The position numbers and the translations under genes were made by a program. DNA of 64,000 bases, from positions 1,443,577-1,507,576 of the forward strand of contig OY811989.1 in the NCBI GenBank assembly GCA_963681505.1, in the 5' to 3' direction. Each line of letters opens with the position of its first letter. Positions within the stretch are counted from its first letter, which is position 1. The notes beneath the pieces are model-generated. The model made no database searches and had not been told where the DNA came from. It was given only the letters and a program-made list of their open reading frames with translations. Of the stretch, positions 7,302 to 59,931 are shown one piece after another. Source of the stretch: Eunapius fragilis (taxonomy: Eukaryota > Porifera > Demospongiae > Spongillida > Spongillidae).

Positions 7302-8144
7302 CAAGTAAATAAAAACATTCTCTACGAGAAAGTTGGTGGGATATAGGATTTGATTATGACATTGGTGGTGTAAAAAGCAAGGAAACAAGGTCTTATCAGA
7401 AGGGAAAATGTCATAGTCCTATATTTAGCACATTTCTAGGACATGTGTTGTTTGTGTGCTAAATATAGGACCATGACATTTTCCCTTCTGATAAGACCTT
7501 GTTTCCTTGCTTTTTACACCACCAATGTCATAATCAAATCCTATATCCCACCAACTTTCTCGTAGAGAATGTTTTTATTTACTTGTTTTCTTTATTTTTT
7601 TTTCATACCCATTTAATTATACAAGACATTAGTCTCGTACCCAGACCGTCTATGACGTAAGCGATTATCGCTGTAAACAGTATAATCACTACGTCCATAC
7701 GTATGGACGTAGTGTTTACAGCGATAATCGCTTACGTCATAGACGGTCTGGGTACGAGACTAACAAGACATAGGAGGCTGATAGTCGATTGTTTATATTA
7801 TATAAAAGCGAGTCCTCCAGCCGATTCTGAAGCTATTGGTGAAATTTTCATCGCTTAGAAATGTTCCTGTCCTGAGTTATGCGTGGGCAAGAAGGAGAAG
7901 ACGACCCGCCCCTTGTTCCGAGACTGGGTACGAGGACGGGCAGTACACTCTTGTTCTCAACAACCACGCGGTTCAGCGACATGAAACAAAAACGAAACTA
8001 CTCATTTTTGACTTCTAGATCGATTGCTAAAACAAGCTACACGACCCGATCGTCGGGAGTGTTGTTACAGACGGGTCGCGTTTTTTTAATGACATTCATA
8101 GTCGGGGTCAAATCCTATATGGAAGTTTCTAACGAAACTTCCGA
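7302..8144 (-). mobile_element. Helitron-like family X, copy X1 (non-autonomous)
   Basis: On the minus strand it starts TC at 8144, then a perfect hairpin with stem GGAAGTTTC, then CATATAGGATTTGAC. It ends ACTTG at 7302 after a near-perfect palindrome at 7302-7586 of about 285 bp. Host bases on the two sides are A and T, with no target duplication. It interrupts the hAT transposase directly after a C-x-C-H motif. A relic of the short 5' ORF of the family (MNVIKKTRP..) is present with two stops. A 133-bp MITE is nested at 7630-7762. The closest relative in the window is X4. Confidence 0.8.
7630..7762. mobile_element. 133-bp fold-back MITE nested in X1, 9-bp target duplication
   Basis: It is bounded by TAGTCTCGTACCCAGACCG and its exact reverse complement, with arms of about 50 bp and an inner palindrome (CTACGTCCATACGTATGGAC). 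The 9-bp direct repeat ACAAGACAT lies at 7621-7629 and 7763-7771. The paralogous copy X4 at about 42603 has one ACAAGACAT with no insertion, an empty site. Long TIRs with a 9-bp duplication suggest a Mutator-like origin (inference). Confidence 0.9.
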
Positions 8145-11393: not shown

Positions 11394-12122
11394 CTAAAGT
11401 CCAAGAGCACTACGAAATATATTGTCGCTACTGTTGACACCATACAGGTTGTTGATAGTAGCGTCACACTGCTTCAAACCGCCATCGATTTTTTCCCACT
11501 CTCCAATGCAAGGTTTCTTGCACCTCCAGATGGTGTCGTCAGGAGCAACTCCAAATATCGAATGTGTTCCAGATGCAGAAACATGTTTCATTTTACCAGG
11601 AATCTGCCTCCAGCTTCCGCTCCCGTCCACGGGCATGGTAAAGATGTCATTATTGCTGTTCACACCGTAGACATAGTCATATCCTCCATCGATCTGCTTT
11701 AGCTTTCCCGGAACATTCACCCATCCCGATCCGTCGCACGGCTTCTTGCACTTGAAGATATCATCGTTGGAGTTGACTCCCCAAATGTAGCCGTTCCCAG
11801 AAGCGCTCACGTGCTTCAGCTTTCCCGCCAGCCACTTCCACGAAGAACTGCCATCAACCTTTCGCTTAAATATGTCATCGTTGCTATTTACTCCCCACAC
11901 TTCGAGATCTCCCGCGTCGATCTGCTTTAATGCTCCATCGATCTGGACCCACTGCCCTGTGCAGGGGTTTGGACACCTAAAGATGTTGTTCGCGGAGTTC
12001 ACGCCCCATACGTAGTTGACGGATGCCGAAATGTGTTTAAGCCCTCCGGGCACTTGAACCCAATTCTGACCATAAGCCGCCGCGAAACAAGCTATTAGCC
12101 ACAATGACGTTTGTAGCTGCAT
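11394..12122 (-). CDS. Secreted six-blade tectonin (fish-egg-lectin/tachylectin-1-like), copy 1
   Basis: A 242-residue single-exon protein. Residues 1-18 form a hydrophobic signal peptide (ends near AAAYG). Six tectonin repeats of about 36 residues follow, each with a Trp or Ile strand, a K(H/Q)(I/V)SAS or KQIDAG segment and (W/Y)GVNS.DDIF. Blades 1, 3 and 5 end in paired cysteines (CPNPC, CKKPC, CKKPC), so disulphides are likely. Proteins of this family are secreted beta-propeller lectins that bind microbial carbohydrates; that role here is inferred from the family. A conserved TATA box and AATAAA frame the gene. The start fits the signal peptide. The paralogue at 24065-24796 differs at 29 positions by hand count. 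Confidence 0.9.
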   Translation of the reverse strand: MQLQTSLWLIACFAAAYGQNWVQVPGGLKHISASVNYVWGVNSANNIFRCPNPCTGQWVQIDGALKQIDAGDLEVWGVNSNDDIFKRKVDGSSSWKWLAGKLKHVSASGNGYIWGVNSNDDIFKCKKPCDGSGWVNVPGKLKQIDGGYDYVYGVNSNNDIFTMPVDGSGSWRQIPGKMKHVSASGTHSIFGVAPDDTIWRCKKPCIGEWEKIDGGLKQCDATINNLYGVNSSDNIFRSALGL

Positions 12123-19786: not shown

Positions 19787-20563
19787 CAAGTAGAGAAAAA
19801 CATTAATTCTTTAACGAGGGATATAGGAATTGGAGGCAAAGGTGGTGTAAAAAGGAGGGGAACAAGGTTTTGAGAAAAGAAAAATGAGACAAAAATCCTG
19901 CACATGTAAATGTAACAGAACCAAAAGAAGTGCTAAATATAGGATTTTTGTCTCATTATACCCTTTCCTCAAAACTTTGTTCTCCACCTTTTTACACCAC
20001 CTTTGCCTCCAATTCCTATATCCCACCAACTTTCTCGTTAGAGAATGTTTTTCTCTACTTATTTTTAAAATTATCAATGGCAAGTGCCCCCCCCCCCCCC
20101 CCCCCCGCGCTTCAATTACCGGACGCCCGCTTTTGTCTGGGATCACTGTACGGAACGCAAGTTATACCAATCGCTTTAGAATCTCCTGGAAGGGACATCT
20201 CATGTATCATATATATGAGATGTCCTTCCAGGAGATTCTAAAGCGATTGGTATAACTTGCGCTCTTTAAAACCATTCCTATCCTGAGTTATACTCACCCG
20301 AGAAGAAGACGACGACGACGACGGAGAAGAATTGGCTTGGGGACGAGGTAAAACACGAACTTTTTTTTGTTCTCTTAAAGCAAGCAGTTTGAAGACTGGA
20401 ATAAAATATTTAAATGACCGTCATTGCCTTCTGGTTCGATAGCAACAAAGAGCTACACTATCCGTTTCTCGGTACGCGAGTTATACGGGGGTCGCGGGTT
20501 TTTAAAAAATGATTTCACGACCCGGGTCAATTCCTATATAGGAATTACTATCGTAGTTCCTGA
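19787..20563 (-). mobile_element. Helitron-like family X, copy X2
   Basis: On the minus strand it starts TC at 20563, then a hairpin stem AGGAACTAC/GTAATTCCT (one mismatch), then TATATAGGAATTGAC. It ends CTACTTG at 19787 after a diverged palindrome at 19787-20062. The host bases are A and T. It carries a C-run at 20088-20106 and an internal inverted duplication at 20155-20262. It is more diverged than X1, X4 and X6. Confidence 0.7.
20155..20262. repeat. Inverted duplication inside X2
   Basis: Arms with GCAAGTTATACCAATCGCTT and CTCCTGGAAGGGACATCTCA face their reverse complements across a short AT loop near 20205. One arm corresponds to sequence that is single-copy in the other X elements (CCGATTCTGAAGCTATTGG in X1). 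Confidence 0.8.
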
Positions 20564-24064: not shown

Positions 24065-24796
24065 TTAAAGTTCAAGAGCACTGCGAAATATATTGTCGTT
24101 GCTGTCGACACCGTACAGGTTGTTGATCGTAGCGTCACACTGCTTCAAAGCGCCATTGATTCTCTCCCACTCTCCAATGCAAGGTTTCCTGCACCTCCAG
24201 ATGGTGTCGTCCGGACCAACTCCAAATATCGAGTGTGTTCCGGATGCGGAGACGTATTTCAACTTACCAGGAATCTGCCTCCAGCCTCCGCTCCCGTCCA
24301 CAGGCATGGTAAAGATGTCATTATTGCTATTCACACCGTAGACGTAGTCATATCCTCCATCGATCTGCTTTAACATTCCGGGAACCTGCACCCATCCCGA
24401 TCCGTCGCACGGATTCTTGCATTTGAAGATATCATCGTTGGAGTTGACTCCCCAAATGTAGCCGTTCCCAGAAGCGCTCACGTGCTTCAGCTTTCCTGGC
24501 ACCAAGATCCACGATTCACTGCCATCAACTTTCCCCCTGAAGATGTCGTCGTTGCTATTTACTCCCCACACTTCATGGTCTCCCGCGTCGATCTGCTTTA
24601 GTGCTCCATCGATCTGGACCCATTGCCCTGTGCAGGGGTTTGGGCACCTGTAGATGTTGTCCGCGGAGTTCACGCCCCATACGTGGTTGACGGATGCCGA
24701 AATGTGTTTCAGCCCTCCGGGCACTTGAACCCAATTCTGACCATAGGCCGCCGCGAAACAAACGGCTGTAAGCCAGAATGGCGTTTGTAGCTGCAT
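24065..24796 (-). CDS. Secreted six-blade tectonin (fish-egg-lectin/tachylectin-1-like), copy 2
   Basis: A 243-residue single-exon protein with the same architecture as the copy at 11394: signal peptide to about residue 19, six tectonin blades, and cysteine pairs CPNPC, CKNPC and CRKPC. Twenty-nine differences from copy 1 by hand count. Several cluster in blade 3 (SSSWKWLAG against SESWILVPG) and in the signal peptide, while the W/YGVNS.DDIF strands are nearly invariant. The intact frame, conserved TATA box and polyA signal imply both copies are functional. Carbohydrate binding in innate defence or egg/larval protection is the family role, not shown here. Confidence 0.9.
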   Translation of the reverse strand: MQLQTPFWLTAVCFAAAYGQNWVQVPGGLKHISASVNHVWGVNSADNIYRCPNPCTGQWVQIDGALKQIDAGDHEVWGVNSNDDIFRGKVDGSESWILVPGKLKHVSASGNGYIWGVNSNDDIFKCKNPCDGSGWVQVPGMLKQIDGGYDYVYGVNSNNDIFTMPVDGSGGWRQIPGKLKYVSASGTHSIFGVGPDDTIWRCRKPCIGEWERINGALKQCDATINNLYGVDSNDNIFRSALEL

Positions 24797-33201: not shown

Positions 33202-33246
33202 TCGGAACCTACGCGAGTAGGTTCCATATAGGAATCCAACAGTATC

Positions 33247-33492
33247 ATGAATGTCATTAGAAAAACGTCACTCACGTCTAGCGGGACATTTAAGAATCGG
33301 GTCACTTCGCTCTTAGTGGCAATCGAGCGATATCAAAAAGGACAACAGTTCTGCGTTGTATCAGTGTCACAAGACGGTGTACTTTTAGAGAACAAAAATA
33401 CTCGTCCCCATTGTCCGTACCCAGTCCCACCTAAAATTTCTCCTCCGTCGGCTTCTTATTCTTCTTCTTCTTCTTCCTTCCGGAGAGTATAA
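33247..33492 (+). CDS. Short conserved ORF of family X (X3 copy)
   Basis: 81 codons from ATG. It shares with the X5 and X6 copies the pattern MNVI.K..., RV..L.VA....., QFCVVSV or QFRVCLM, then (V/L)(V/L)ENK. The start codon lies 45 bp after the element end, in the same place in each copy. The function is unknown. It might be a first exon of the lost element protein, or a conserved non-coding end that happens to be open. Confidence 0.3.
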   Translation: MNVIRKTSLTSSGTFKNRVTSLLVAIERYQKGQQFCVVSVSQDGVLLENKNTRPHCPYPVPPKISPPSASYSSSSSSFRRV

Positions 33493-35061
33493 CTCACGAC
33501 AGGAACGTTTCTAAAGCACGCCATGTGTACCAATCGCTTCAGGATGCGTCCGCAGGTTATCTTCGGGTGTCTGTTAGACGCCTAACTGTTCGGGCAATTA
33601 ACTAAAGCGAATAGTACCTCATTTGGTATTCGGTTAAAAATACCCAATTACATCAGCTAGCTATTTTTAATTTAATAATAGCCACGTGTCGTGGGCGTGA
33701 TTCAAATTCTTAATATTCCCGCACGCTGTGGAAGAGGTATACGCACTGAATCTAGAGCCCTTTAGGGTCCCTACAGCGCCATGTATAAATGTCCAACCAT
33801 AATGCCAAATGGTTGAGAAACGGAATGGAGCAGTGATATGCGATAACGTTATAGGAAGGCTCCTGAGGAATATTCAAGTTATCATTTTCTGCATGACGCC
33901 TGTGCGTTACTCTCAACTCTATCATTCGTTACGCAGCTTGAAATGAAAGCCAAAACTACCATACACGTAAGTACCCGACACTATCGCATATAATTGTTTT
34001 GACCGAATTGATTTCTATACTATAGCTTCTTATATAGCATAACTTTCGAATTCTGTCGGTGGAACTACATACGCGATCAGATACTACGGTATACAGTCTA
34101 CAGCAGATATATGTGAAGCAAGAGGCTCCAATTAGAATGTGTCTCCCCACACCACCCACCCTTACTCAAAAAAAAAAACCCGGCAACAACTAGTCCCTCG
34201 TACACCTACAGATATGCCAAACGAGTGCAATACAAGACACGACAATTAAGGTGTCAAGCGCGCTACTGAAAGGACCAACAAAGCGACCACCCGAAGGTGC
34301 GTTACACCATGAATGTTGGATCTGGACATAAATTGTAGCATGTATAGTGTATCGCTAAAATATTTTATGCAACAGTTACAGCAGAAGATATTGCGTCTCT
34401 CTCTGTGCTGTTGTCTGAAATGTGTGCACGCTGTTCGCTGACAACACTTTCGTAATTGTGGTGCATAGTTTATATCTGATAATAGTGTCAAAGTTGCGCG
34501 TGCATGATGTGTATTGTGGTGCATAATTTATATCTGATAATAGTGTCAAAGTTGCTGACGACAACGTATTGTGGCATGGTTTATCTGATAATAGCGTGAG
34601 CTCAGTGGGTACATGTAATCTTTGTCTGATGTATTATATGGCTTCGCTTGCCAGTTGAGATTTGTTTTAACTAATGGTTGTTTAAATCAGGTCCAGGTCC
34701 AGGAGTCACTCCACCTGCTCCACATCCAGGTCCAGGAGTGGTTCCATGTCCAGCTGCAGGATTAGCTCCACCTGCTCTACCTGCTGTATATCCTGGATAC
34801 AGAAGTATATCCTGATTCAGAATATACAGCAGTATATCCTGATCCAGGATATATAAGATGACACGCTCCTGGGTTTTATTATAGCTATACTTGTACTTAT
34901 TGTTTAAATAGTAATACTGTGTATTTTAATGGTACACCCACACCTCAACAAAATTGCATGGCCGCGAGATTCTAAAATAAAACTGTCATTTGACATTCTT
35001 GCTACATGGTTACGTTTCAAGAACTAAATACAATACTAAATCCACCAAAAAATGTAGGAAA

Positions 35062-35344
35062 CAAGTGATAAAAACATTCTCTATGCGAGAAGGTTGGTGG
35101 TATATAGGAATCAAAGGCGGTGGTGGTGTAAAAAGCAAGGGAACAAGGATTGTGATTGAAAAGGAAAAATGAAATAGACCTATATTAGCAAACACAGTTA
35201 AACATGACGACATGCTGCTGATATAGGTCTATTTCATTTTTCCTTTTCAATCACAATCCTTGTTCCCTTGCTTTTTACACCACCACCGCCTTTGATTCCT
35301 ATATACCACCAACCTTCTCGCATAGAGAATGTTTTTATCACTTG
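35062..35344. repeat. Terminal palindrome of X3
   Basis: The left arm starts CAAGTGATAAAAACATTCTC, and the right arm is its reverse complement ending TTTTTATCACTTG. The arms of about 135 bp differ at only a few positions, around a loop near 35190-35220. It contains GTTGGTGGTATATAGGAATC and GGTGGTGTAAAAAGCAAGG. Confidence 0.95.
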
Positions 35345-42204: not shown

Positions 42205-43006
42205 CAAGTAAATAAAAATATTCTCTACGAGAAAGTTGGTGGGATATAGGATTTGATTATGACATTGGTGGTGTAAAAAGCAAGGAAACAAGGTCTTATC
42301 AGAAGGGAAAATGTCATAGTCCTATATTTAGCACATTTCTAGGGCATGTGTTGTTTGTGTGCTAAATATAGGACTATGACATTTTCCCTTCTGATAAGAC
42401 CTTGTTTCCTTGCTTTTTACACCACCAATGTCATAATCAAATCCTATATCCCACCAACTTTCTCGTAGAGAATGTTTTTATTTACTTGTTTTCTTAATTT
42501 TTTTTCATACCCAAGTAACCCAATGACTGTTGTATGGCTGCTTCTCCCTTTTCATTTCTTTATACACATGCCGTTTATCTTTAGATACCGTAATTAAAAA
42601 ATACAAGACATAGGAGGCTGATAGTCGATTGTTTATCAAAGTATTATATTATATAAAAGCGAGTCCTCCAGCCGATTCTGAAGCTATTGGTGAAATTTTC
42701 ATCGCTTAGAAATGTTCCTGTCCTGAGTTATGCGTTGCCAAGAAGAAGGAGAAGAAGAAGAAGACGACCCGCCCCTTGTTCCGAGACTGGGTACGAGGAC
42801 GGGCAGTACACTCTTGTTCTCAACAACCACGCGGTTCAGCGACATGAAACAAAAACGAAACTACTCATTTTTGACTTCTAGATCGATTGCTAAAACAAGC
42901 TACACGATCCGATCGTCGGGAGTGTTGTTACAGACGGGTCGCGTTTTTTAATGACATTCATAGTCGTGGTCAAATCCTATATGGAAGTTTCTAACGAAAT
43001 TTCCGA
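42205..43006 (-). mobile_element. Helitron-like family X, copy X4
   Basis: On the minus strand it starts TC at 43006, with hairpin stem GGAAATTTC/GAAACTTCC (one mismatch), then CATATAGGATTTGAC. It ends ACTTG at 42205 after a near-perfect palindrome (42205-42489). The host reads CTTAA then T-ATG-GAT, which restores the hAT frame exactly. It is the closest relative of X1, with an extra block of about 100 bp (42514-42600) and no nested MITE. Confidence 0.9.
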
Positions 43007-44819: not shown

Positions 44820-46170
44820 TCGGAACCTACGCGAGTAGGCTCCATATAGGAATCCAGCAGTATCATGAAGTCATTTAAAAAAAAAAAAACGTCACTCGCG
44901 TCTAGCGGGACGGCCAAAAGTCGGGTCACTTCGCTCTTAGTGGCAGTAGAGCGATATCAAATAGGAGAGCAGTTCTGCGTTGTTTCCATGTCATCAGACT
45001 GTGTACTTTTAGAGAACAAAACTACTCGTCCCCATCGTCCGTACCCAGTCCCATCGAAAATTTCCTTCGGGATAGCATAACTCACGACAGGAACGTTTGC
45101 AAAGAAAGCCAAGTGTACCAATCGCTTCAGGATGTGTCTGCAGGTTATCTTCAGGTGTCTGTTAGACGCCTAACCGATCGGGCAATTAGCTGAAGCGAGT
45201 AGTACCTTAGTTGGTGTTGATCCGGCTACAAATAGCACATTACATCAGCTATCACAATGTTCATGACGCACTTATAAAATAACCGATCAAAATCAAATTT
45301 GATGGTTTTAATTTACCATGCAATCTCAAGGACAATTCTGATTCCACTCGAGCATCTAAAAAGATCCAGATGCTGCCAGATCTGCCAAACGAGTGCATGT
45401 CAAGCGCGGTACCGAAAGGACCAACAAAACGACCACCCAAAGGTACGTTACAGCATCGATAAATGTTGGATTGATAAATTATGAACGTGCATGGTATATC
45501 GCTAAAATGGAAGGAATAGTTTATGTAATAGTTACAGTAGTAAATACTATAGTAATATGCGCTGTTTGAAATGTGTGTATAACGCTTACGCCAATTTGCA
45601 TTGGTCATGTGTTGCGGTGCATGGTTTATCTGATAATAGCGTGAGATCAGTTTAGTACATTTATCCTATGTATTATATGGTTTCGGTTTTTGCCAATGAT
45701 TTTAACCTTTCTCACCCCTTGATCCTCAATGGAGGTAGTCTGGGGACTAGTATAATATTTTATGGTACACCTCAACAAAATTGCAGATTCTAAAATGATC
45801 GCGCAAGTTGATGTTTTTGCTACCTGATTCTGTACGTTTCAAGAACTAAATACAATACTAAATCCACCAGAAAAATTTAGGAAACAAGTAATAAAAACAT
45901 TCTCTATACGAGAAGGTTGGTGGTGTATAGGAATCAAAGGGATGGTGGTGTAAAAAGCAAGGGAACAAGGCTTCTGATTGAAAAGGAAAAATGAAATAGA
46001 CCTATATTAGCATGCACATTTAAATAAGACAACATGTTGCTAATATAGGTCTATTTCATTTTTCCTTTTCAATCAGAAGCCTTGTTCCCTTGCTTTTTAA
46101 ACCACCATCATTCACCTTTGATTCCTATATACCACCAACCTTCTCGTATAGAGAATGTTTTTATTACTTG
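44820..46170 (+). mobile_element. Helitron-like family X, copy X5
   Basis: Starts TC at 44820, with stem GGAACCTAC/GTAGGCTCC (one mismatch), then ATATAGGAATCCAGC. It ends ATTACTTG at 46170 after a palindrome at about 45886-46170. The host ..GAGATCTA and TTATATTGAAATCGG join in frame near the transposase C-terminus. It is collinear with X3, including blocks GCCAAACGAGTGCA, GGTTTATCTGATAATAGCGT and CAAGAACTAAATACAATACT. Confidence 0.9.
44865..45080 (+). CDS. Short conserved ORF of family X (X5 copy)
   Basis: 71 codons, aligned to the X3 copy: SRVTSLLVAVERYQ, then QFCVVSMSSDCVLLENK, then RPHRPYPVPSK. A run of A after the ATG has altered the start (MKSFKKKK). Function unknown. Confidence 0.3.
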   Translation: MKSFKKKKTSLASSGTAKSRVTSLLVAVERYQIGEQFCVVSMSSDCVLLENKTTRPHRPYPVPSKISFGIA

Positions 46171-58336: not shown

Positions 58337-58381
58337 TCGAGAGTTACGTTAGTAACTCTCATATAGGATTTGACCCCGATT

Positions 58382-58612
58382 ATGAATGTCATTAAAATAA
58401 CGCGACCCGCTTCTAACAAGACTCCCGACGAGCGGATGGCTTACCTTGTTATCGTCGTCGTACAAGAAGGCAACAACAAGCAGTTTCGTGTTTGTTTGAT
58501 GGCACAAAACCGCGTGGTTGTAGAGAACAAAACAATTTTCGAAACTCGTACCCAGTCCCACGTATTTCTCGTTCTTCTTCGTCTTCTTCTTCTTGTTCTT
58601 GACCACGCATAA
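58382..58612 (+). CDS. Short conserved ORF of family X (X6 copy)
   Basis: 76 codons from the ATG at the same place as in X3 and X5. MNVIKITRPASNKTPDERMA, then QFRVCLMAQNRVVVENK. The X1 copy can be aligned with it residue by residue but has two stops. Function unknown; it may be a first exon or an open non-coding end. Confidence 0.35.
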   Translation: MNVIKITRPASNKTPDERMAYLVIVVVQEGNNKQFRVCLMAQNRVVVENKTIFETRTQSHVFLVLLRLLLLVLDHA

Positions 58613-58986
58613 CTCGGGATAGGAACACTTTTAAGAAATGAAAATCACACCAATGGCTTCAGAATTCGTTGGCATTCTCGCTTCTGTGGTCAAAACGTCT
58701 CGAGGCTACATGACATATATCGGTGGTTGTGTTAGCAAATCACGTATAACTTACTGCACTGACACGACTCGGAAAGGTCCTACGTCGCTCTTTATACGAA
58801 GTACTAGCAGTATACATCATGTAATCAAATGTGTACGGTCTGGGCACTACACGTAGTGGAAATAAACTTTGGCGGTTATGTATTTTTAATAACGTGCACG
58901 TGCGTACTATAATCATTCTTGTTATTTGATCGTTGTAGGTTTGACGCTCTTTGTAATTTAGTGAAGTTGTTTTTTTTTTTTTCAAA

Positions 58987-59482
58987 ATGCCTTCACGTCA
59001 GGAAAAGAAGAAAGCCAAACGACGAGCATAGTACCTCAAAACTAGAGACGACGTAAAAGATTCAGCCCGAGCGGAACTACAAAGCAGAGCCTGAAAAGAA
59101 GCGGGCCTCTCAACGTGAAAACTATCGAGCAGAGCCTGAAAAGAAACGGATCTCTCGACGCGCAAGGTATCGAGATGCGATTAGTAGGAGAGGAGAGGAT
59201 GCTGTCTGCTTCTGGCCCGATACAAAATGCGTTCGTGGGTTCGATCGCGCCGGGGCGACAATTAATAACCTCTCTTCTATTTCGGCCGCCCCTTAAAGCC
59301 CCCTCAGATCCTGAAAAGGAACGGACCTCTCGACGTGCAAGGTATCGAGCAGATTCTGAAAAAAAAGACAGCGATATTGCCATAGTCCTGAACGTGCATC
59401 TCGCTCGGCGAAAAGAGTTAAGGTCACTCAAAGGTATGTCGTACCTTTACAACCTCCCTCTCATATCAAGATGGATAATTTA
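58987..59482 (+). pseudogene. Lysine/arginine-rich repeat protein, decayed (possible Helitron Rep/helicase N-terminus)
   Basis: ATG 58987 gives MPSRQEKKKAKRRA and then a stop. In a shifted frame follow AEPEKKRASQRENYR, AEPEKKRISRRARYR and, after an insertion of about 100 bp (59205-59300), DPEKERTSRRARYR and ADSEKK. Tandem repeats of this YxxDPEKKRxSxR type stand at the N-terminus of many sponge and cnidarian mobile-element proteins, including Helitron helicases (from memory). The helicase itself is absent. Confidence 0.5.
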
Positions 59483-59931
59483 ACATGCTATACGGCTCAT
59501 AATCGGGTATGAATAAAAATCAATGAAACGAGTGGGTAAAAAACATTCTCTATGAGAAAGTTGGTGGCATATAGGATTTGAAGGCAATGGTGGTGTAAAA
59601 AGGAAGGAAACAAGGGTCTAGTAATAAGGGAAATGGAATAGTCCTATATTTAGCACATTTCTATATGTAGGATATAGTATGTTGTTCGTGTGCTAAATAT
59701 AGGACTATTCCATTTCCCTTATTACTAGACCCTTGTTTCCTTCCTTTTTACACCACCATTGCCTTCAAATCCTATATGCCACCAACTTTCTCATATAGAA
59801 TGTTTTTTATTTACTTGTAAATTTTAACTGCGTGAATTGTGTAATTCATAACCCTCTTATGACATATATGTCTCTACAAGCTCTTTAATGACTGTATTTC
59901 AATAGTAATAACCGTCTACTAGGTCTTTAAA

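Follow-up and report, generated by a model that had tools for sequence, protein, structure and literature searches.

Helitron1 elements, represented by Helraiser (PMC4778049; PDB 7lcc), are described as starting with TC, inserting between A and T, carrying a 3' hairpin and encoding an HUH-Y2 Rep with a PIF1-like helicase. In the accessible sections of the Helraiser study the element ends in CTAG, with a 19-bp palindrome 11 nt from the end and no inverted repeats, and its 3' hairpin acts as a terminator that is helpful but not strictly needed, its loss raising read-through (PMC4778049). Helitron2 elements of Chlamydomonas and others have, in the available part of their description (PMC3627910), a 5' hairpin, a small 3' hairpin and asymmetric subterminal inverted repeats, the 5' copy starting 0–2 nt from the end and the 3' copy lying upstream of the small hairpin; compensatory changes occur in the termini, pairing of both repeats has been proposed to set the endpoint, and insertion takes place between TTTT and T/C. 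FoHeli1 and FoHeli2 of Fusarium oxysporum are counted as Helitron2-like but break this insertion rule, being inserted at TNAT with T or A; the accessible account (PMC5148889) gives them a 5' TC followed directly by a small hairpin of which the repeat is part, an inverted repeat 38–51 bp from the 3' end, a small 3' hairpin and a 3' ATTTT, with ends confirmed by empty sites.

Helentrons and the related DINE-1 and HINE elements carry an AP endonuclease at the C-terminus of the protein and insert within TT; in the portions available, the source (PMC4067079) also describes numerous non-autonomous copies, mite families whose subterminal repeats lie about 38–60 bp from the 3' end, a reported OTU protease, and a motif 2 of the form F/Y-(w/l/y/k)-R with S between G and P. 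The proto-Helentron of Phytophthora infestans, treated in the same source, is about 14 kb long and encodes a Rep-helicase without endonuclease and a SET protein; it inserts between A and T without duplication, has a 5' TT and a 3' CTAG, and no giant terminal palindrome is mentioned in the accessible description (PMC4067079).

The window analysed here is the whole stretch of 64,000 nucleotides of Eunapius fragilis DNA, in which the original prediction placed six Helitron-like elements: X1 (7302..8144, minus strand), X2 (19787..20563, minus), X3 (33202..35344, plus), X4 (42205..43006, minus), X5 (44820..46170, plus) and X6 (58337..59817, plus). All six sets of coordinates proved exact on re-inspection, and every element starts with TC, ends in ACTTG, is preceded by A and followed by T, as had been claimed; in element orientation each reads A/TC-hairpin-ATATAGGA ... 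ACTTG/T, the slashes marking the element limits. X1, which is non-autonomous, and X4 are 93–98% alike in their common parts and form a subfamily with the hairpin GGAAGTTTC-GTTA-GAAACTTCC; X3, also non-autonomous, and X5 make up another subfamily and are approximately 82–92% alike over longer common stretches; and X2 (hairpin AGGAACTAC-GATA-GTA(A/G)TTCCT) and X6 (GAGAGTTAC-GTTA-GTAACTCTC) represent two further subfamilies. The window also encodes, on the minus strand at 11394-12122 and 24065-24796, two related repeat proteins of 242–243 aa which we take to be tectonin-like.

The ends of these elements are abundant in the genome. The 5'-end pattern TCN8CGNNAGN8ATATAGGA occurs at 1339 + 1318 = 2657 places in the 219-Mb assembly, where the reversed pattern used as a control occurs at 0 + 0, and the pattern for the end of a palindrome arm, CAAGTNNNNAAAAACATTCTCT, occurs at 2579 + 2581 = 5160 places genome-wide (reversed control, 0 + 0). 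Of the first 100 listed of these 5160, 68 can be matched into 34 pairs that face each other and measure 265–295 bp from outer edge to outer edge, the four variable bases being identical in 31 of the 34 pairs; for the other 32 the strict pattern yields no partner.

At the 5' end of X3 (33202..33225, plus strand), TC is followed by a 9-bp stem closed by a GCGA loop, and a 9-bp 5' hairpin with a GNNA loop is present in all six window copies. Stems were perfect in 39 of 45 matches to the GNNA-loop pattern, in seven sequence versions; a single match to a relaxed pattern, with seven stem mismatches, was a false one. Because the search patterns fix both TC and GNNA, the constancy of these features outside the six window copies is in part built in. 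Directly behind the hairpin lies a repeat of 11–13 nt, in X3 ATATAGGAATC at 33226..33236, whose complement is found 34–41 nt from the 3' end in all 21 elements with two ends (35294..35304 in X3, plus strand, 40 nt from the 3' end). The 5' copy matches the 3' end of its own subfamily best or equal-best, and the 3' ends of other subfamilies over 3–10 nt, except for one pair that shares the same repeat. A 5' terminal hairpin and asymmetric terminal inverted repeats, both described for Helitron2, are found here. In one further element (L046, minus strand) the first 19 bases are duplicated directly ahead of the element start, as if transfer had begun twice or the element had landed in the hairpin of another.

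The base preceding the 5' end is A in 55 of 56 distinct 5' ends, the sole exception (L093) having G, and the base following the 3' end is T in all 24 listed 3' ends. These 24 derive from 44 distinct 3'-end-like matches, all followed by T, of which 23 were taken as true ends with inner arms mostly excluded, and to which one (L081) was added. CTTG, rather than the CTRR of Helitron1, closes 24/24, a figure that is partly by construction because most of these ends were found with a pattern ending in A.TTG; the six window 3' ends were read directly. Base-by-base inspection located uninterrupted versions of five target sites: that of X3 at approximately 35.9 kb of the window (minus strand) and at L002 and L003, that of X4 at L096 and L097, of X5 at L098 and L099, of X1 at L100 and L101, and of X2 at L103 and L104. 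All are continuous at the junction, with neither duplication nor loss. The place most closely related to the X6 site (L102, G000:C19:1517840-1518100), some 14 kb distant on this contig, has a gap of 35 bp spanning the insertion point, so X6 is without a clean empty site. The predicted absence of a target duplication therefore stands for X1–X5 and, as given below, for the autonomous copy, with insertion between A and T at the inspected copies, and has no clean empty site to rest on at X6. Removal of X3 does rebuild a repeat phrase present uninterrupted elsewhere, as had been proposed. Removal of X4 and X5 was said to restore the frame of a hAT transposase; the empty sites are continuous at both junctions, and the interrupted frame may be that of a hAT transposase, the PF05699 match being confined to one of three pieces and lying below the cut-off (E=0.11). 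The repeat interrupted by X4 and X5 is multi-copy: for each site, at least eight relatives align with the joined query along its full length.

A full copy with X3-type ends is present at C1:1402421-1412947. It is 10,527 bp long, shares its first 32 bases with X3, ends in ATCACTTG followed by T, and contains an ORF of 1977 aa. X3, which belongs to its subfamily, has 93% identity with it in the terminal 460 and 425 bp. Both X3 and X5 align with its ends and, in between, with isolated internal stretches, the pattern expected of derivatives with internal deletions. The empty site of the full copy is present elsewhere: its joined flanks match 600/600 to L028, L029 and L031 and 599/600 to L030, and they match X3 in the window at 95%. 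Each of the four loci L028–L031 contains, besides a Rep-helicase gene, an X-like element that lies at a constant distance behind the Rep match and starts with TT and not TC, a composite that seems to have multiplied.

Pfam analysis of the 1977-aa ORF identified Helitron_like_N (2.5e-26), PIF1 (7.3e-20) and DUF6570, and an OTU match of 21.0 bits, under the 23.3 cut-off; neither an endonuclease domain, such as the C-terminal AP endonuclease of Helentrons, nor a DDE domain was found by Pfam. A two-tyrosine HUH Rep fused to a PIF1-type helicase, the defining arrangement of the Helitron superfamily, is therefore encoded between the same ends. In an alignment of 10 proteins, H818/H820, Y959/Y963 and the Walker A residues G1273, G1276, G1278, K1279 and S1280 are invariant; presumably these are the catalytic residues of the HUH family. 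The Rep domain matches that of Helraiser (PDB 7lcc) at 1.5e-6. Helitron_like_N has at least 91 matches in the genome, and the best named Rep-helicase relatives among the matches listed (120 of 178) are from Ephydatia muelleri, with 90% identity over the query region, which makes a freshwater sponge the most likely host; further relatives lie at 55–70%. Relatives were also sought in viral contigs, where 21 stretches carried the pattern and none was a relative.

Rep-helicase classes in the genome go with 5' hairpin versions of their own: GGAACC accompanies L021, L027 and the C4 copy; TGAACC the copy at C2:13901780; GAGAGT the copy at C2:2489058 and 11 of 14 further Rep-helicase copies, with no hairpin found in the upstream stretch examined for the other three; and AGGACC the Rep-helicases L023, L026 and L037, with one mismatch in L024. 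No such hairpin was seen in the upstream stretches examined for class H (L078) and for two Helitron1 copies (L070 and L071).

The 3' end of the X elements is a palindrome of approximately 284 bp that runs up to the last base, both of its limits being terminal sequence. In X1 (7302..7585, minus strand) it forms an uninterrupted stem of 131 bp with a 22-nt loop (dG −152.3, z −38), and in X3 (35062..35344, plus) it has a dG of −157.8 kcal/mol as single-stranded DNA (z −34); it is likewise present in X4 (42205..42488, minus), X5 (45885..46170, plus) and X6 (59529..59817, plus), and decayed in X2 (19787..20060, minus; self-identity 0.745). Well-kept copies thus end in a near-perfect hairpin of approximately 130 bp, much larger than the small ones described for Helitrons. 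A Rep-helicase class that is 63% identical to the X3 type has a palindrome of about 301 bp, ends in ATCTTG followed by T, and shares this layout, ATGTAGGA replacing ATATAGGA and TCCTACAT standing at the other end. As this class keeps the layout, and classes carry their own hairpins, the palindrome and its matched repeats probably go back far in the lineage. All eight inspected copies, the 63%-identical class among them, have AAA immediately ahead of the inner arm (GAAA in seven; e.g. window 7585/7586), so that the complement of this arm also continues with T, like the true end; AAA at this boundary may go back to a single ancestral event.

The two arms change together. Across 15 palindromes, 95.5% of 1853 cells were paired and 52 of 131 pairs showed changes on both sides; none of 500 shuffles was equally high, in a test that related rows inflate, and controls with a slid structure gave 43–50%, the counted structure being that of X1, one of the alignment's own rows, which by itself favours it over slid versions. 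This alignment (A1) holds 15 of 24 tails, omitting X4, L040, L042, L043, L045, L046, L061, L062 and L003, the X6 row starting eight bases late and the X2 row one base late. Within the outer 125 bp, every base is complemented in the inner arm in 8 of 24 tails, and in 13 of the remaining 16 at least 94.4% of bases are, a count that disregards additional inner-arm bases; the tails below this value are those of X2 (decayed), L003 and L061 (truncated by the locus edge). Arm comparisons left out X2 and L061, and among the 22 other tails covered four named groups together with L050 and L081. Between subfamilies, nine chosen pairs differed at 10–40 paired positions each, summing to 186 two-arm and 3 one-arm changes, a scarcity of one-arm changes to be expected when well-kept palindromes are picked. 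The 25 comparisons made inside subfamilies, which are not independent of each other, gave 39 two-arm versus 35 one-arm changes, and we take the latter to be decay after insertion.

Given the Rep-helicase copy with the same ends and the insertion between A and T without duplication, the X elements belong to the Helitron superfamily. A foldback or MITE-like DNA transposon moved by a DDE enzyme would account for short non-coding copies with inverted repeats, and among the Ephydatia relatives of the Rep-helicase one gene model (P0008) contains PF12762, which we take to be a DDE-type domain, possibly through a merged prediction; the inspected sites show no duplication, the ends are asymmetric and the full-length copy encodes a Rep-helicase in which Pfam finds no DDE domain, so that flanks and coding content refute this identity at the tested sites and leave it exceedingly improbable. 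It is very unlikely that these are canonical Helitron1 elements in which the CTRR end has changed slightly and the palindrome arose by accident. The TC start, the A and T target (L093 excepted) and the lack of duplication do agree with Helitron1, as do the HUH-Y2 Rep, the PIF1-like helicase and the presence of a 3' hairpin; a palindrome of 16–20 nt about 11 bp from the 3' end and a lack of inverted repeats do not describe the X elements, nor does the CTAG end of Helraiser, and the X palindrome is maintained across subfamilies. In the accessible parts of the published accounts, moreover, Helitron1 has no 5' hairpin (PMC3627910) and no inverted repeats (PMC4778049). The same genome holds a separate Helitron1 family (L009–L014), of which L009, with repeated QETEDEIVQRRAEEAQRLREFRQ units ahead of its Rep domain, encodes a protein that matches Helraiser with 907 bits; X-type protein is just 24–27% identical to this genome's Helitron1 over 130–336 residues, shorter pieces aside. 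In a midpoint-rooted tree, whose Helitron1 clade consists of this genome's own copies and which has no Helentron or Helitron2 row, a very long branch divides X-type from Helitron1 proteins and places the Rep-helicase outside that clade (the long row P0177 being unsure). Protein distance and end structure together reject a Helitron1 identity. Descent from Helentrons with loss of the endonuclease is somewhat easier to entertain, though still improbable: motif 2 is FWKKEYQMRGAPHYH in X-type proteins versus IEFQKRGLPHAH in Helitron1 and lies nearer the published Helentron signature than the Helitron RGLPH, a match that is partial because X-type proteins have F-W-K, with A in the Helentron S position. 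Against it, Pfam finds no endonuclease in the ORF, insertion is between A and T rather than within TT as the available text has it for Helentrons (PMC4067079), and the tree holds no Helentron reference. Among the rows listed from two protein searches (120 of 178, and 66) none carried an endonuclease domain in Pfam, so the tree speaks to Helitron1 and not to Helentron or Helitron2 proteins.

By recipe, the closest described elements are the oomycete proto-Helentron and the fungal FoHeli1/2, likened here by their descriptions. As in the proto-Helentron, beside which the X-type protein can be set by description only, there is no endonuclease and insertion is between A and T without duplication; both autonomous forms are long (about 14 versus 10.5 kb), and they differ in their termini (TT and CTAG versus TC and CTTG), in the SET protein and in the giant palindrome, as far as the accessible description goes (PMC4067079). 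FoHeli1/2 share the TC followed directly by a small hairpin, a similarly placed inverted repeat (38–51 bp versus 34–41 nt from the 3' end) and confirmation by empty sites; their 3' ATTTT, small 3' hairpin and TNAT target are unlike X, as is the repeat forming part of the hairpin rather than lying behind it (PMC5148889, available part). With Helitron2 the X elements have in common both hairpins, the asymmetric subterminal repeats and compensatory terminal changes; they differ from it in target, in a 3' repeat inside the stem of about 131 bp rather than upstream of a small hairpin, and in a 5' repeat that starts 24 nt rather than 0–2 nt from the end (PMC3627910, accessible sections). Helentrons, DINE-1 and HINE resemble them in subterminal repeats, many non-autonomous copies and an OTU match, here below the cut-off, and differ in endonuclease and TT target, to the extent described in the available text (PMC4067079). 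The idea of an undescribed Helitron branch is supported in part, in that the Rep-helicase is far from Helitron1 and the terminal anatomy mixes groups, on a tree without Helentron or Helitron2 proteins; no published description of such elements was found in the literature searched, Repbase lying outside that search.

We consider it highly probable that the X elements are the non-autonomous part of a high-copy lineage of the Helitron superfamily, moved by the Rep-helicase of full-length copies with the same ends (an HUH endonuclease with two tyrosines, a PIF1-type helicase and an OTU-like tail) through a snap-back of the 3' end. The ends, the insertion rule, the empty sites, the autonomous copy, the structures and their covariation are observed, and from them the following course is inferred. 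The Rep domain would nick between A and TC beside the 5' hairpin and the helicase would then displace the strand; in each cycle the terminal palindrome would snap back into a hairpin of approximately 131 bp which, with the subterminal repeat common to both ends, would mark the junction between ACTTG and T for the second cut, after which the element would be joined between the A and T of a new site. The palindrome would be a strongly enlarged version of the terminator hairpin of the Helraiser type. If the arms pair as one hairpin in each cycle, mismatches could be corrected from arm to arm by repair or copying, giving concerted evolution of the arms.

It is possible, if rather less likely, that the palindrome is kept by ordinary selection on pairing, that is on terminator strength, compensatory changes accruing slowly and neither arm being copied from the other. 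The strong pairing covariation would follow, one-arm changes do occur within subfamilies, and the Helraiser hairpin works as a terminator in the accessible account (PMC4778049); harder to reconcile with it are X3 and L060, which differ by three two-arm and no one-arm changes, X3 and L035, which differ by eight and none, and the eight tails in which all 125 outer-arm bases are complemented (inner-arm extras uncounted). The covariation fits both homogenisation and selection for pairing and does not cleanly separate them. We think it unlikely that the palindrome is a self-priming, telomere-like end through which the lineage would replicate by fold-back priming, either in place of plain circle formation or in addition to it. 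As the palindrome extends to the last base, the 3' OH of the cut strand would be base-paired with the inner arm, where it could serve as primer for the second strand; parvovirus hairpins prime second-strand synthesis by fold-back. Were this the case, homogenisation of the arms would result from such priming.

Under the favoured snap-back model, arms changing together would be a sequence-level trace of the hairpin intermediate. Given their CTTG end, 5' hairpin and inverted repeats, such elements are expected to be missed by searches based on CTRR and a small hairpin. For the question of how a Helitron recognises its 3' end, the X lineage offers a 3' structure about 10 times larger, in many copies, in which 5' hairpin, subterminal repeat and Rep-helicase vary together by subfamily, a natural experiment on end recognition and its specificity.
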